This document shows, piece by piece, positions 15,620-21,345 of a stretch of 21,345 bases of DNA (the stretch's first letter is position 1; each line of letters starts with the position of its first letter). The position numbers and the translations under genes are program-made. This DNA comes from a virus. Below the pieces are notes generated by a model. The model was given only the letters and a program-made list of their open reading frames with translations, made no database searches and was not told the DNA's origin. The DNA lies in IMG/VR virus record IMGVR_UViG_3300048694_000658, positions 1-21,345 of that record; one strand, written 5' to 3'.

Positions 15620-16708
15620 ATGTCTGTTATCAATGTGAGTCTAGAAGATACATTTGAACAGTGGCGAGTTAAGACAAATGCAATTAGTTCTTTTGCTGGT
15701 GATCAAGCTTCTCTTCTAACAACCTCAACAAGTTTAGCTGCAGCTATTAATGAGGTGCGTTCATTCGCTCCAATTAGTGGTACAATAAACACGTATGGAA
15801 ATAATTTTTCTGTACAAATCGATTCAGTTGATGGTGCAGAACTTGTATTAGATCAGAACGGTAATCTTACACTTCAAGGTAAACTATACGCTGACTGCGT
15901 TGGCAACTTAATCGGTAATGCTGATACTACTACTAAATTAAGAACAGCACGTATTATTTCAATTACTGGTGATGCCACATGGAATATTACCTTTGATGGC
16001 TCTACAAATCAAAGCGCTGCATTATCACTTAATCCTAGTGGAGTTGTACCAGGAACATATACTAAAGTAACAGTTGGTGGTGATGGCCGCGTAACATCTG
16101 CGACTAATGCAAATCTAGCCGATATTACTGCTAGTTGTGGCTATACACCAGTTTCTACACTAGCTGGTTATAATGATCCATCTTGGATCACAGGTCTTAG
16201 CGGCGCAAAGATTTTAAGTACTTCTTCAATAGCTGTTACTAATGCAACTATTGGTAATAGACTATTAGTTGGTAATGGTTCACAGACTCAACCAAGTATT
16301 GGATTCTCTTCTGATACAAATCAAGATACAGGTTTGTATTGGTCAACTGAAGGTTACATCTGTTTTACTAATCAGGGTGTAATTAGTGGAGCTATTCAAC
16401 CTGGCGGTCACTTAGTTATGGCAGGTGACGTAGTTGCATATTCTGATATTAAATTTAAAAAGAACGTTGAAACTATTAAAGATGCATTAAGCATAGTTAA
16501 TAAAATGCGTGGTGTTTATTATGATCATGTTACTACTAATGAACACAAGATTGGTGTCATTGCTCAAGAAGTAAAGCAGCAAGCTCCAGAATTAATACAT
16601 ACAGAAGCAGATGGTACTTTAGGCGTTGCATATGGAAATATGGGCGCATTACTTTTACAAGCCATTAATGAATTGACTGAAAGAGTAAAAGCTCTTGAGG
16701 ATAGATAA
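15620..16708 (+). CDS. Tail fibre-like protein with C-terminal Peptidase_S74 chaperone domain
   Basis: A 362-residue protein. Residues 275-362 are the intramolecular chaperone of endosialidase type (Peptidase_S74): SDIKFKKNVETIKDAL, then MRGVYYD and KIGVIAQEVKQQAPELI, and a final helix (LLLQAINELTERVKALE). In this family the domain helps the fibre trimerise and then cuts itself off at the conserved Ser-Asp, here S275-D276. The rest is a beta-rich region: ANAKLRTARIISITGDATWNITFDG-like text around 110-135 (TTKLRTARIISITGDATWN), GVVPGTYTKVTVGGDGRV, and GFSSDTNQDTGLYWSTEG just before the chaperone. Both phrases are widespread in phage fibres. The N-terminus (LEDTFEQWRVKTNAISS) is a common attachment module for phage structural proteins. 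The stop overlaps the ATG of the Cys-rich gene (TAATG), linking the two in translation. Confidence 0.9.
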   Translation: MSVINVSLEDTFEQWRVKTNAISSFAGDQASLLTTSTSLAAAINEVRSFAPISGTINTYGNNFSVQIDSVDGAELVLDQNGNLTLQGKLYADCVGNLIGNADTTTKLRTARIISITGDATWNITFDGSTNQSAALSLNPSGVVPGTYTKVTVGGDGRVTSATNANLADITASCGYTPVSTLAGYNDPSWITGLSGAKILSTSSIAVTNATIGNRLLVGNGSQTQPSIGFSSDTNQDTGLYWSTEGYICFTNQGVISGAIQPGGHLVMAGDVVAYSDIKFKKNVETIKDALSIVNKMRGVYYDHVTTNEHKIGVIAQEVKQQAPELIHTEADGTLGVAYGNMGALLLQAINELTERVKALEDR

Positions 16709-17175
16709 TGACATTACAATCAACAGGTCCAATTACAATAGCGGATGTATATAAGGAAGCTCGTAAAAAAGCCGGTGTTTATATTGAAGGTACTGTAACA
16801 GCTTCTGGTATTACAGCAGAAGTTAATACATATTCGGCAAATTTATCATGGATTCAAAATAATACTAAACCAGCATATAGAGATAATATAGCTAATCTTT
16901 CAGGCGTATTGGGTTATGCTTATTATCAAAAAAATAATGCAGGTAATTGTGATAATGGTAATTGTACAGTTGCTGCAGCAAATTGTGGTAATATTCAATG
17001 CACGAACTGTCAAATTACTTCTACAGTAAATTGTGTTAATTGTGATTCACAAGAATGGTTACAACCAAATTGTAACTGTGCGTGCACCTATAATTGTGTT
17101 CAAAGCCAAGTTTCATATAATTGTGCTTGTGCTTGTGCTTGTGCTTGTGCATGTGGAGACGCTTGCGGCGGCTAA
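16708..17175 (+). CDS. Cys/Asn-rich structural protein, candidate substrate of the adjacent radical SAM enzyme
   Basis: A 155-residue protein in two halves. Residues 1-75 contain no cysteine and start MTLQSTGPITIADVYKEA, like the N-termini of many phage tail/fibre structural proteins ('SGxISxxDIxxE'). Residues 76-155 hold all 18 cysteines (81, 86, 93, 98, 101, 109, 112, 122, 124, 126, 130, 139, 141, 143, 145, 147, 149, 153). Ten are preceded by Asn, one by Gln and seven by Ala. This half has no Lys or Arg and ends with CACACACACACGDACGG. The gene is coupled to the fibre gene before it (TAATG), and the radical SAM/SPASM gene starts 27 bases after its stop. I infer a virion protein whose tail is cross-linked by the radical SAM enzyme, in the manner of Cys-rich RiPPs. 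Alternatives are a metal-binding or disulphide-linked tip. No predefined family is recognised for the C-terminal half. Confidence 0.85.
   Translation: MTLQSTGPITIADVYKEARKKAGVYIEGTVTASGITAEVNTYSANLSWIQNNTKPAYRDNIANLSGVLGYAYYQKNNAGNCDNGNCTVAAANCGNIQCTNCQITSTVNCVNCDSQEWLQPNCNCACTYNCVQSQVSYNCACACACACACGDACGG
17122..17154 (+). repeat. Hexanucleotide tandem repeat TGTGCT encoding (Cys-Ala)n
   Basis: Four perfect TGTGCT units, a fifth ending in GCA, and a final TGT encode Cys139 to Cys149 alternating with Ala. The near-identical codon choice suggests expansion by replication slippage, and copy number could change without shifting the frame. This would alter the number of modifiable cysteines at the end of the Cys-rich protein. 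Confidence 0.9.
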
Positions 17176-17181
17176 TAAATA
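17174..17181 (+). promoter_or_regulatory. Possible late promoter variant (AATAAATA) before the radical SAM gene
   Basis: AATAAATA differs from the T4 late element TATAAATA only at the first base. It lies in the 27-base gap after the Cys-rich gene (its first base is within the stop codon). Initiation 5-8 bases downstream would leave the GAAGGA ribosome binding site (17189-17194) and the ATG at 17203 on the transcript. The motif is easily formed by chance in AT-rich DNA beside a TAA stop, so confidence is low. Confidence 0.25.
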
Positions 17182-17202
17182 TTATTTTGAAGGATTAATA
17201 TA

Positions 17203-18645
17203 ATGATTTTTGAAATATTGGCTGAACGCCATTCAGAAGACAGAAAACTATTTTGGTATGATAACCAACTTAGTACTCTTACTAGTGAGGATGGTATTGT
17301 ATTTCAAATACCAACTAGCGAAAACATTGATGACATTACACCTCCAGTAGTGCCGTTTTCAAAAGACACACCTCTAAAAAAATCCAAACAAATACAAAAA
17401 TTAAAGATCCAAATGGGTCTTTCATGCAATTATTCTTGTGATTATTGTTCACAAAAATTTGTTGGACGTCCGCCAGAAACATCTAAAAAAGATATTGATG
17501 ATTTTCTTGCAAAATTAGATGTATTAGAATTTTGTGAAGAGAAAGGTCTAAGTATTGAATTTTGGGGTGGTGAACCATTTGTATATTGGAAGACTATGAA
17601 ACCTCTTGCTGAAGCAATTCGCGAGAGGTTTTCTCATTGGAAAAAAGCACCTAAATTTTCTGTTATCACAAACGGATCTATATTAACTAGAGAAATTTGT
17701 ATGTGGTTAATGTATAATGGATTTGCAGTTTCAATTAGTCATGATGGTCCAGGTCAAAGTGTGCGTGGTCCAGATCCATTCGAAGATCCAGAAAATAAAA
17801 AGATTGTATTAGAATTTTATAAGATGATGCGACCTTTGGGTAGAATTAGTTTTAATTCAATGTTGAATTCTAAAAACAAGAGTCGTAAAGAGATTCATGA
17901 ATGGTTTATAAATTTTACAGGTGATGAAAATGTTATATTGGGTGAAGGTGGATTAGTAGATGCATATGATGCTGATGGAATGAATAATTGCCTAACTACA
18001 AAGCAAGAACATTTTGAGTTTAGACGAACAGCATTTAATGATATCTTTAGTGTAGATGCAAATATTGGATTTGATGGAATAGTTCAAAAAATTAATGGTT
18101 TTATTGAATCTATTTTACATCAGAAAAAAGACTATTATCTTGGCCAAAAATGTGGAATGGACAACGAACACGTCTTAGCAATTGATATGAAAGGTAATGT
18201 CTTAACATGTCAAAATGTTTCTGCTGTAGAAACTGCAATGAATGGAGAATCACATTTAAGCGGCAATTTAGATGATTATGACAATGTCTTAATTAAATCG
18301 GCTACTCATTGGATGAATAGACCAAAATGTGGAGATTGTCCAGTATTACATCTATGTAAAGGATCATGTATGTTTTTACAAGATGAATATTGGAATACTA
18401 CATGTGATAATGCATATAGCGATAATATAGTGCTTTTTGCAATTGCATTTCAAAAAATCACTGGAGGTTACATCCCATTTTACATAAATAGTGATATATT
18501 ACCTGAAGATAGAAAAGATATTTGGGGTACATTATCTAAACATGAAGAAGAACCTAAGAGAAAGGTTATTCCAATCAAGGTAATTAATGAAAAAGTAAAA
18601 TTAGATGATGTAGAAGTATACACTCAAGCAAGGGCAGAAAAATGA
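17203..18645 (+). CDS. Radical SAM enzyme with SPASM domain (peptide/protein maturase type)
   Basis: A 480-residue enzyme. Residues 1-65 are a beta-type N-terminal region. The radical SAM core follows, with the 4Fe-4S motif CNYSCDYC (C75, C79, C82; CX3CX2C), the GGEP motif at 122-125 for SAM binding, and a VITNGSIL strand around 155. The SPASM domain has all seven expected cysteines: C317, then GNVLTC (C336), then C376-X2-C379-X5-C385-X3-C389 and C401, enough for two auxiliary iron-sulphur clusters. Enzymes with this layout (anSME, PqqE, QhpD, and sactipeptide and ranthipeptide synthases) modify peptides or proteins, often by joining Cys sulphur to a backbone or side-chain carbon. The direct neighbour is an 18-Cys protein, the obvious substrate. 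A good ribosome binding site (GAAGGA) is 8 bases upstream. The stop overlaps the next ATG (ATGA). The reaction itself is not shown by sequence. Confidence 0.92.
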   Translation: MIFEILAERHSEDRKLFWYDNQLSTLTSEDGIVFQIPTSENIDDITPPVVPFSKDTPLKKSKQIQKLKIQMGLSCNYSCDYCSQKFVGRPPETSKKDIDDFLAKLDVLEFCEEKGLSIEFWGGEPFVYWKTMKPLAEAIRERFSHWKKAPKFSVITNGSILTREICMWLMYNGFAVSISHDGPGQSVRGPDPFEDPENKKIVLEFYKMMRPLGRISFNSMLNSKNKSRKEIHEWFINFTGDENVILGEGGLVDAYDADGMNNCLTTKQEHFEFRRTAFNDIFSVDANIGFDGIVQKINGFIESILHQKKDYYLGQKCGMDNEHVLAIDMKGNVLTCQNVSAVETAMNGESHLSGNLDDYDNVLIKSATHWMNRPKCGDCPVLHLCKGSCMFLQDEYWNTTCDNAYSDNIVLFAIAFQKITGGYIPFYINSDILPEDRKDIWGTLSKHEEEPKRKVIPIKVINEKVKLDDVEVYTQARAEK

Positions 18646-20023: not shown

Positions 20024-20764
20024 ATGTTAACAGATTTAGAAATTGATGAATATTATAAAACACAATTACAGTATTTTATTAATCCTAATGATAAACTATT
20101 AGATATGTCATTAAATAATAAGCAATCTAATATATTAGTTGATGTTACTGATAAGCGTATCTTTGGAGTTGGTGTTTATTCAGGCAGTGTAAGAGCATTA
20201 TCATCCTTTGATAAGCAAGTTGTATATTCTTATATTTTTGATAGTATGAAAAATGGAGTTCAACGTACAATCTTTAGTAGAAATAAAGCTTGGAGAATGC
20301 GTATTAGTGATGATGGTTATAGTTGGGTAGATTCTCCAAATATTGCAACTATTGAACAATTACATGGATATATTTTAATAAACCAGAAGATTGCTTTATT
20401 AGATGTTATTCAAGCTGAGATTGATAGATTTAGAAGATTAATTACTAAAGGAACTGATAGTCAACAAAATATATATTTTTCAAAGTATATAGAAGCTAAA
20501 TATATTATAGAAAATAATATAGAAGCTGATCCTTTATTACAATATCCTTTTACTACTGGATATGCTGAATTGCATGATCTTACCCTTCAAGAATCTGCTA
20601 AACGTATCATGTTTCAACATGATACTATGGCTAGTAGACTTGCAGAAACTGAAAATTTTAGATTAAAGTATTCGTATATTGTTAGAGACAATAATGATAT
20701 TACACAACTCAAATCGATTCTTAATGCCTTTATGACTGAAAGCACTCAATACAGCAGCTTATGA
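20024..20764 (+). CDS. Unknown protein, second of a second paralogous pair
   Basis: A 246-residue paralogue of the preceding protein. The N-terminus is MLTDLEIDEYYKTQLQYFIN against MLSKKESWEFYMSLYPYFIR, so the homology probably runs the full length. The central AWRMRISDDGYSWVDSPNI aligns with the neighbour's CWRWQLVYTDSVNLEWREV. The conserved C-terminal helices carry KYIEA, QYPF..GYAEL, and ETENFRLKY. No catalytic motif, signal or membrane segment is visible. The start is 1 base after the previous stop, and the stop overlaps the ATG of the asparagine-synthetase-like gene (ATGA). A role in fibre assembly or in handling the modified protein is possible but unsupported beyond position. Confidence 0.75.
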   Translation: MLTDLEIDEYYKTQLQYFINPNDKLLDMSLNNKQSNILVDVTDKRIFGVGVYSGSVRALSSFDKQVVYSYIFDSMKNGVQRTIFSRNKAWRMRISDDGYSWVDSPNIATIEQLHGYILINQKIALLDVIQAEIDRFRRLITKGTDSQQNIYFSKYIEAKYIIENNIEADPLLQYPFTTGYAELHDLTLQESAKRIMFQHDTMASRLAETENFRLKYSYIVRDNNDITQLKSILNAFMTESTQYSSL

Positions 20765-21345
20765 AAAAAACTATATTCTTTAATAGCTATGATTTATTTG
20801 TAAATCCAGCTCATTATGATGCGTGCAATAAATTACCAGGTGGCCATGCTATGCGTGGATATTATCAATTATTCTCTAATAATATTAGTACTCATGATAG
20901 GACAAATACATTTACTACTCCCATCAAAACTGATATTATGGATCATTTAAAGCTTCCTGAATTTAAAAAGTTTGATAGAGATTTTGGTGAATTAATCGAT
21001 GAGCGTGCTATTGAATTGATGAATCAGGTTAAAGAATCAGGTCGAAAACTAGCAGTTATGTATAGTGGAGGTATTGATTCTACTGCTATTCTATGTGGAT
21101 TATTAAAAAATTGTTCTGAAAAAGATTTAAAAGATCATGTTGTTGTATTATTAAGTGATCATTCTATTTTAGAAAATCCTAATTTTTATAAAAATTATGT
21201 AGTTAAAAAATTTGAATGTGTATCAAGTTTTAGATTTCCATATTTTGTGGGTAATGATGACTTTCTGTTAATTTCTGGAGAATGTGCAGATCAATGTTTT
21301 GGATCTCAGGTAACTGGTAAATTTTCATCATATAGACCATATGAA
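20761..21345 (+). CDS. Asparagine-synthetase-like ATP pyrophosphatase (3' end cut by window)
   Basis: The frame is open from the ATG at 20761 to the window end (195 residues visible). Residues 100-107 (MYSGGIDS) are the PP-loop SGGxDS that binds ATP in N-type ATP pyrophosphatases. Residues 172-182 (SGECADQCFGS) match the asparagine synthetase motif 'SGxGADExFGG', which distinguishes it from QueC-type enzymes sharing only the PP-loop. The protein begins MKKTIFFNS, with no N-terminal nucleophile Cys and only about 100 residues before the PP-loop, so the glutaminase domain of AsnB is absent. Such stand-alone domains adenylate a carboxylate and then form an amide; examples are lasso peptide macrolactam synthetases and beta-lactam synthetase. 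Coupled to the preceding gene by ATGA, it appears to belong to the radical SAM cluster. The acceptor and substrate are unknown. Confidence 0.78.
   Translation, partial: MKKTIFFNSYDLFVNPAHYDACNKLPGGHAMRGYYQLFSNNISTHDRTNTFTTPIKTDIMDHLKLPEFKKFDRDFGELIDERAIELMNQVKESGRKLAVMYSGGIDSTAILCGLLKNCSEKDLKDHVVVLLSDHSILENPNFYKNYVVKKFECVSSFRFPYFVGNDDFLLISGECADQCFGSQVTGKFSSYRPYE

Follow-up and report, generated by a model that had tools for sequence, protein, structure and literature searches.

The window analysed here (21,345 bases) is a complete IMG/VR record; it carries a myovirus-like baseplate and tail region, and the phage sequence ends at position 21,345 (Table 1). In this lineage, a gene for a putative asparagine synthetase-like protein and its upstream partner (PART) follow an S74 fibre, a Cys-rich tail protein and a SPASM radical-SAM enzyme. 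The earlier note on this DNA had drawn attention to the synthetase and to the radical-SAM and fibre genes before it. The neighbour that turned out to be constant is the partner gene, which had not been singled out.

Table 1. Features at the 3′ end of the window
Feature	Position	Strand	Remarks
Tail-fibre protein with S74 chaperone domain	15620..16708	+	
Cys-rich protein, 155 aa	16708..17175	+	LxxTGxI-type N-terminus, C-terminal (Cys-X)n run; candidate radical-SAM substrate
Radical-SAM/SPASM maturase-like enzyme, 480 aa	17203..18645	+	phrog_1802; nearest NCBIfam model is PapB, below cut-off
Small protein, 116 aa	18642..18992	+	By eye like the 100-aa protein (VxQVRxxxxL motif common to both)
Small protein, 100 aa	18995..19297	+	Kept in the closest relatives
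Partner paralogue, 241 aa	19297..20022	+	
Partner (PART), 246 aa	20024..20764	+	Small beta-containing N-terminal domain and helical C-terminal domain; predicted fold DUF4376-like
4-bp ATGA overlap, partner stop/synthetase start	20761..20764	+	Translational-coupling type
Putative AsnB-type synthetase (PP-loop) protein	20761..21345	+	5′ complete, 3′ cut by contig end, 195 codons; relatives 340–398 aa
PP-loop motif SGGIDS, residues 102–107	21064..21081	+	S, G, G, D and S invariant in alignment A1
Second ATP/Mg motif SGECADQCFGSQ, residues 172–183	21274..21309	+	Counterpart of AsnB SGEGSDEIFGGY, Tyr to Gln

The Synthetase Gene and Its Missing Glutaminase Domain

The synthetase ORF starts with ATG and carries, in frame, both ATP-binding motifs to which the earlier note had pointed. 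It is open up to the end of the record, with its 3′ half lying off the contig. Full-length homologues in four viral loci (L004–L007) share 64–72% identity with it across the same 195 residues; since these homologues and at least 455 viral relatives exist, the ORF is a real coding sequence. Homologues in L022, L023, L025, L028, L029, L034 and L080 are 45–55% identical, and a distant set is at 26–33%. A search of viral contigs with the truncated 195-residue protein returned no match. The full-length relatives were reached by using the radical-SAM neighbour as query, which gave 78 viral loci, several of them with a full synthetase gene downstream. In alignment A1, S-G-G-D-S-T of the PP-loop is invariant, as are N38, D43-R44 and several aromatic residues.

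The absence of an N-terminal glutaminase, claimed from the window alone, holds for the relatives as well. The homologues are 340–398 aa long, the close ones share the N-terminus, and the PP-loop lies near residue 100. Neither a Cys2/Ntn domain nor an MCG start was found in the full-length homologues. Downstream of the synthetase, the closest relatives encode a cupin-like protein, then one or two short proteins that look structural, then a Gly-rich adhesin-like protein; by analogy, the same gene order would be expected 3′ of the window synthetase, beyond the contig end.

Fold and Family Assignment

The L007 homologue, the closest one, gave an AF2 model with pLDDT 88.8 and pTM 0.88. In the structural comparison (Foldseek and VIA-align), the hydroxyamidotransferase TsnB9 (7ylz) took the top rank with a Z-score of 13.0 over 260 residues. 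Other AsnB-type enzymes came next: beta-lactam synthetase (1mbz, Z 12.2), human ASNS (9b6c, 11.9), E. coli AsnB (1ct9, 11.3) and carbapenam synthetase (1q15, 10.4). GMP/NAD synthetases and LarE scored 8.7 and below. The earlier note had suggested comparing the full protein with beta-lactam synthetase, and on the L007 homologue this enzyme is indeed among the best AsnB-type matches. The best Foldseek TM-score is only 0.39, and the kinship with AsnB is therefore remote.

Profile comparison by hhalign against four AsnB sequences of bacterial genomes gives an alignment (223 columns, E 7e-5, probability 63%) that runs through the C-terminal domain and pairs SGENADQLFGSQ with AsnB SGEGSDEIFGGY. A PDB sequence search with the synthetase profile produced an alignment confined to the PP-loop region. 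The Pfam asparagine synthetase model (PF00733) gives the window fragment 14.9 bits against a cut-off of 21, and the full-length L004 protein also stays below the curated cut-offs, with 16.7 of 21 bits for PF00733 and 15.7 of 267 bits for TIGR01536. The structure ranking and the hhalign result together bear out the proposal of an AsnB-type synthetase domain without glutaminase. Judged by sequence and model, the protein is a glutaminase-less member of the AsnB fold superfamily with an ATP-pyrophosphatase (PP-loop) synthetase domain, the PP-loop reading SGG(I/L)DS. By its sub-threshold scores and the loss of the catalytic Tyr described below, it is not a standard AsnB.

The Catalytic Corner

Motif counts were made on 55 synthetase clusters with a readable second motif. 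None of the 55 retains the Tyr (GGY) of the catalytic Glu-Tyr dyad, whose Glu is kept in 47 and lost in 8. The Mg-binding Asp is likewise kept in 47/55 clusters, and the Glu next to it is always Gln or Asn. The AsnB consensus GEG(A/S)DE-FGGY with an intact dyad occurs in none of the 55. The synthetases of radical-SAM group 2 have both the Glu and the Mg-binding Asp replaced as well (SGMCGNQLFGPT).

The dyad is common to TsrC, ScdTA, AsnO and PesC, and in PesC, a peptide nitrile synthetase, it is required, the Y368F variant being dead (PMC13060819). It is absent from the phage synthetases. Since the dyad of the characterised amidating relatives is broken here, the active-site residues do not tell amide from lactam formation. 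The loss of Tyr in every cluster and of Glu in eight suggests that the chemistry may differ from standard amidation.

AsnB, TsnB9, beta-lactam synthetase and carbapenam synthetase have the PP-loop and the second ATP motif in the same order as the phage proteins, and the fold is shared over ~215–260 residues. In contrast to this group, the phage synthetases possess no glutaminase or vestigial Ntn domain, have DE changed to DQ or DN and GGY to GS(D/Q/L/T), score below the thresholds of the curated models, and are coupled to a partner gene. On sequence and structural prediction, we thus place the family within the AsnB fold superfamily, yet it differs in the catalytic corner.

The Partner Gene

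Neighbours were counted in 70 synthetase clusters (<80% identity). The gene directly upstream is PART in 54 of them, a DctP solute-binding protein in 7 and another gene in 8, with a contig edge in the remaining one. The overlap of PART and synthetase is exactly 4 bp in 29 of the 54 clusters and 1 bp in 7. Because the synthetase was the sole query for most of these loci, the search itself did not create the pairing, and PART is a nearly constant genetic partner of the synthetase. The DctP copies that replace the partner gene (L052–L071, L155) start without an obvious signal peptide.

The PART model (pLDDT 91.2) finds matches in BFVD with TM-scores up to 0.64/0.74, the best being unnamed, uncharacterised phage proteins. 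Several entries named DUF4376 are among the weaker matches, one with probability 1.00 and an E-value of 0.06. A comparison with PDB gave weak helical matches only. No Pfam match, PF14301 included, was obtained for 28 partners at E 0.1. PF14301 also had no match in 26 records; the control genomes likewise gave none. Among DUF4376 proteins, a role as chaperone of tail fibres is described for V22 gp27 and A5 gp9 (PMC7289586, PMC10579305). PART resembles these proteins of Alteromonas phage V22 and of A5 in length (246 aa vs. 195–239 aa), in the position of its C-terminal domain and, in several lineages, in its phage tail context, and the weaker BFVD matches may point the same way. It differs from them in having no PF14301 sequence match and in being paired with a synthetase, often far from fibre genes. 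The putative link to DUF4376 is one of predicted fold and of moderate strength.

Tail Genes and Radical-SAM Enzymes

The earlier note considered a synthetase unusual for a structural region. The neighbourhood of tail-protein and radical-SAM genes is real and recurs in relatives, but most relatives lie outside recognisable tail-tip regions. Synthetase and radical-SAM genes belong to a single run of genes in two clades, one of them the window clade. On the tree, the radical-SAM label has to change at least four times, and the two genes were therefore probably brought together more than once. A tail context is found in the window clade, radical-SAM group 2, Xanthomonas prophages and Pseudomonas phage Cygsa01. 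In the Xanthomonas prophages and their relatives, PART and the synthetase come after a tail protein whose end is a long stretch of prolines, and genes for a cupin and a 2OG-Fe oxygenase lie some kb further on. At two such loci, the prophage tail protein directly upstream of the pair (L164:6700-7350 and L168:6722-7207) has an unbroken run of dozens of prolines, or P/V repeats with GG at the end. The Cygsa01 genome has, after its baseplate and fibre genes, a Gly-rich protein and two synthetase homologues, both annotated as MnmA (L185:7422-9571).

Tail-gene proximity was ruled out as a rule for the whole family: with the synthetase as sole query and redundancy reduced, a radical-SAM, Gly-rich or S74-like gene lies within 5 kb at ~5 of 59 loci. 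A C-terminal GG of tail proteins was likewise rejected as a common substrate signal; it occurs in some relatives of the window and one Xanthomonas-like locus and is not general.

A protein with a CxCxC run lies on the same strand within 3 kb in 35 of 41 radical-SAM clusters, compared with 2 of 1,413 ORFs in loci without radical-SAM. By sequence, the SPASM enzyme and the CxCxC protein (window positions 16708-18645; L003–L080) look like a phage-encoded pair of peptide maturase and substrate. Fibre-like proteins ending in CNCNCNC adjoin the second radical-SAM group (L051, L053, L055, L072 and others). In Achromobacter phage JWF (L081:5793-7244), a CNCDCNCNCSC run stands in a fibre directly before a Hint-like autoprocessing domain. 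Our literature search on radical-SAM enzymes with phage tails found nothing relevant. PADLOC models matched neither the synthetase nor the partner nor the cupin, and the radical-SAM enzyme matched viperin-like models only, with a low score; on these PADLOC results, a role in defence was rejected.

Distribution and Other Neighbours

With A1 as query, at least 599 stretches of viral contigs were matched, at least 455 of them encoding relatives. A search of a genome collection gave ten loci, in Polynucleobacter, two candidate-phylum bacteria, Bdellovibrio relatives, Tenacibaculum, and Xanthomonas albilineans and its relatives. When 50,697 phage records were searched, the L004 protein had no match and the L140 homologue a single one, in Cygsa01 (PP179332), where the MnmA label is a probable misannotation. 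The Polynucleobacter contig (L159) carries the whole cassette of fibre, radical-SAM enzyme, small protein, partner, synthetase and cupin, together with a probable Cys-rich region visible only through its antisense ORF; its presence in this assembly is a hint at the host of these phages.

Multiple divergent synthetase copies can occur within one phage. In 14 loci (including L089, L091, L126, L130, L140, L144 and L158), a further PP-loop family, divergent from the first, is encoded a few genes away at most; a representative of it has no Pfam match. One locus (L092:4938-16207) combines both synthetase clades, the partner, a cupin and a distant radical-SAM enzyme, with genes that by eye are aminotransferase-like and hydrolase-like before a fibre.

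Most synthetase loci are away from recognisable tail-tip genes and near genes for desaturases, GNAT and 2OG-Fe enzymes, DctP and TctC proteins (Pfam scores of 138 and 185 bits, respectively) and sodium:solute symporters. TctC stands beside the synthetase in L025, L087, L109 and L131, and a symporter in L093, L096, L098, L100, L105, L126, L144 and L160. In Bdellovibrio, an acyl carrier protein is encoded near a synthetase pair. In a CPR bacterium (L161:2901-5053), YcaO and nitroreductase genes precede partner and synthetase by a few kb, resembling an azole-type RiPP cluster, and in Tenacibaculum (L163:6888-8906) a cupin and a synthetase homologue stand between two genes that by eye are aconitase-like.

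Possible Function

Enzymes of the AsnB superfamily use ATP to adenylate a carboxylate, and AMP is then displaced by a nitrogen nucleophile. Rather than making asparagine in the ordinary way, the phage protein probably acts as a dedicated bond-forming enzyme driven by ATP; its target is perhaps the phage's own tail tip. In the reading that we tentatively favour, while giving it somewhat less than an even chance, the synthetase would adenylate a carboxylate with ATP, an amine would attack the adenylate to form an amide-type bond, and the DUF4376-like partner may present or shield the substrate. As there is no glutaminase, the nitrogen would come from free ammonia or from an amine of the substrate. 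In the window lineage, gene order points, less firmly, to a tail-tip protein as candidate substrate, and the region might then serve as a module for RiPP-like maturation of the phage's receptor-binding end. Asparagine synthetase-like enzymes of RiPP clusters are known to amidate or nitrilate peptide C-termini (PMC13060819). Such enzymes (PesC, TsrC, ScdTA, lasso cyclases) resemble the phage case in that the neighbours of an AsnB-type synthetase include a peptide or protein of unusual repeats as well as radical-SAM or 2OG-Fe enzymes, and the RiPP enzymes act on carboxylates. PesC, however, uses glutamine-derived ammonia and the Glu-Tyr dyad (PMC13060819), whereas the phage synthetases have neither the Tyr nor a glutaminase. 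A bolder and rather doubtful extension is that receptor-binding tips themselves are RiPP-like maturation products: periodic, low-complexity tail proteins with (Cys-X)n, poly-Gly or poly-Pro stretches would be tailored by phage enzymes, the cysteine run by a SPASM radical-SAM enzyme and the fibre tip by a chaperone-guided AsnB-type enzyme that adds an amide-type bond.

Modification of a tail protein is a possibility to which we give a little under even odds. Against it stand the scarcity of tail-type or radical-SAM genes within 5 kb of the synthetase, the altered dyad and the lack of a PF14301 match, and the metabolic neighbours suit a small-molecule pathway equally well. A small-molecule ligase is, in our estimate, nearly as likely, at about one chance in three: the synthetase and its partner would form an amide in a specialised metabolite or scavenging product, and the location near tail genes would reflect genome organisation only. 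The DctP, TctC, symporter, fatty-acid desaturase, GNAT and 2OG-Fe neighbours fit such a role, as do the Bdellovibrio acyl carrier protein and the YcaO and nitroreductase genes of the CPR bacterium. Yet no common pathway emerges, the neighbours vary by clade while the partner is nearly constant, and in some lineages the pair comes directly after tail-tip proteins.

Three other explanations appear improbable. A degenerate, non-catalytic PP-loop protein acting with the partner as an assembly factor would explain the altered dyad and the further loss of Glu and Mg-binding Asp in radical-SAM group 2; however, the invariance of S-G-G-D-S in the PP-loop and the retention of the second-motif Asp and Glu in 47 of 55 clusters indicate, at the level of these motifs, that ATP chemistry is retained, and we give this explanation little weight. 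Slightly less weight still goes to a tRNA or nucleotide PP-loop enzyme (QueC, MnmA, TilS or LarE-type sulfur transfer). The earlier note had regarded a match to an enzyme such as QueC as the outcome that would speak against its proposal, and no such match emerged: QueC-like and PAPS-reductase PHROG hits are weak (E ~1e-4 to 5e-3) and mostly restricted to the PP-loop, MnmA, TilS and LarE are weak too, and structurally these enzymes rank below the AsnB group, which is clearly first and whose alignment reaches the C-terminal domain. The MnmA label in Cygsa01 would agree with such an enzyme, but the CxxC zinc site of QueC and tRNA PP-loop enzymes is absent from the L007 translation. An ammonia-dependent asparagine synthetase, serving as an auxiliary metabolic gene that supplies Asn, seems the least probable of all. 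It would share the fold superfamily, and a viral asparagine synthase has been reported as an auxiliary metabolic gene (PMC10980836); the scores below the Pfam and TIGR01536 cut-offs, the loss of the GGY Tyr in all clusters, the change of DE to DQ or DN, the several divergent copies in one phage and the nearly constant partner all argue against it.

Significance

The fold is already known; what appears to be new is a glutaminase-less, dyad-altered, partner-coupled phage family. No description of such a family was found in the literature searched, and none of the Pfam, NCBIfam, PHROGs and PADLOC models describes the synthetases at a convincing score. This large family has been hard to see because the curated models miss it and cultured phages are almost without it. 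Under both the tail-protein and the small-molecule readings, the labels 'asparagine synthase' or 'MnmA' on such phage genes are probably wrong. If a small molecule is made, phages carry a widespread unknown biosynthetic step. If tail proteins are modified, phages would rely on enzymatic post-translational chemistry to recognise their hosts.
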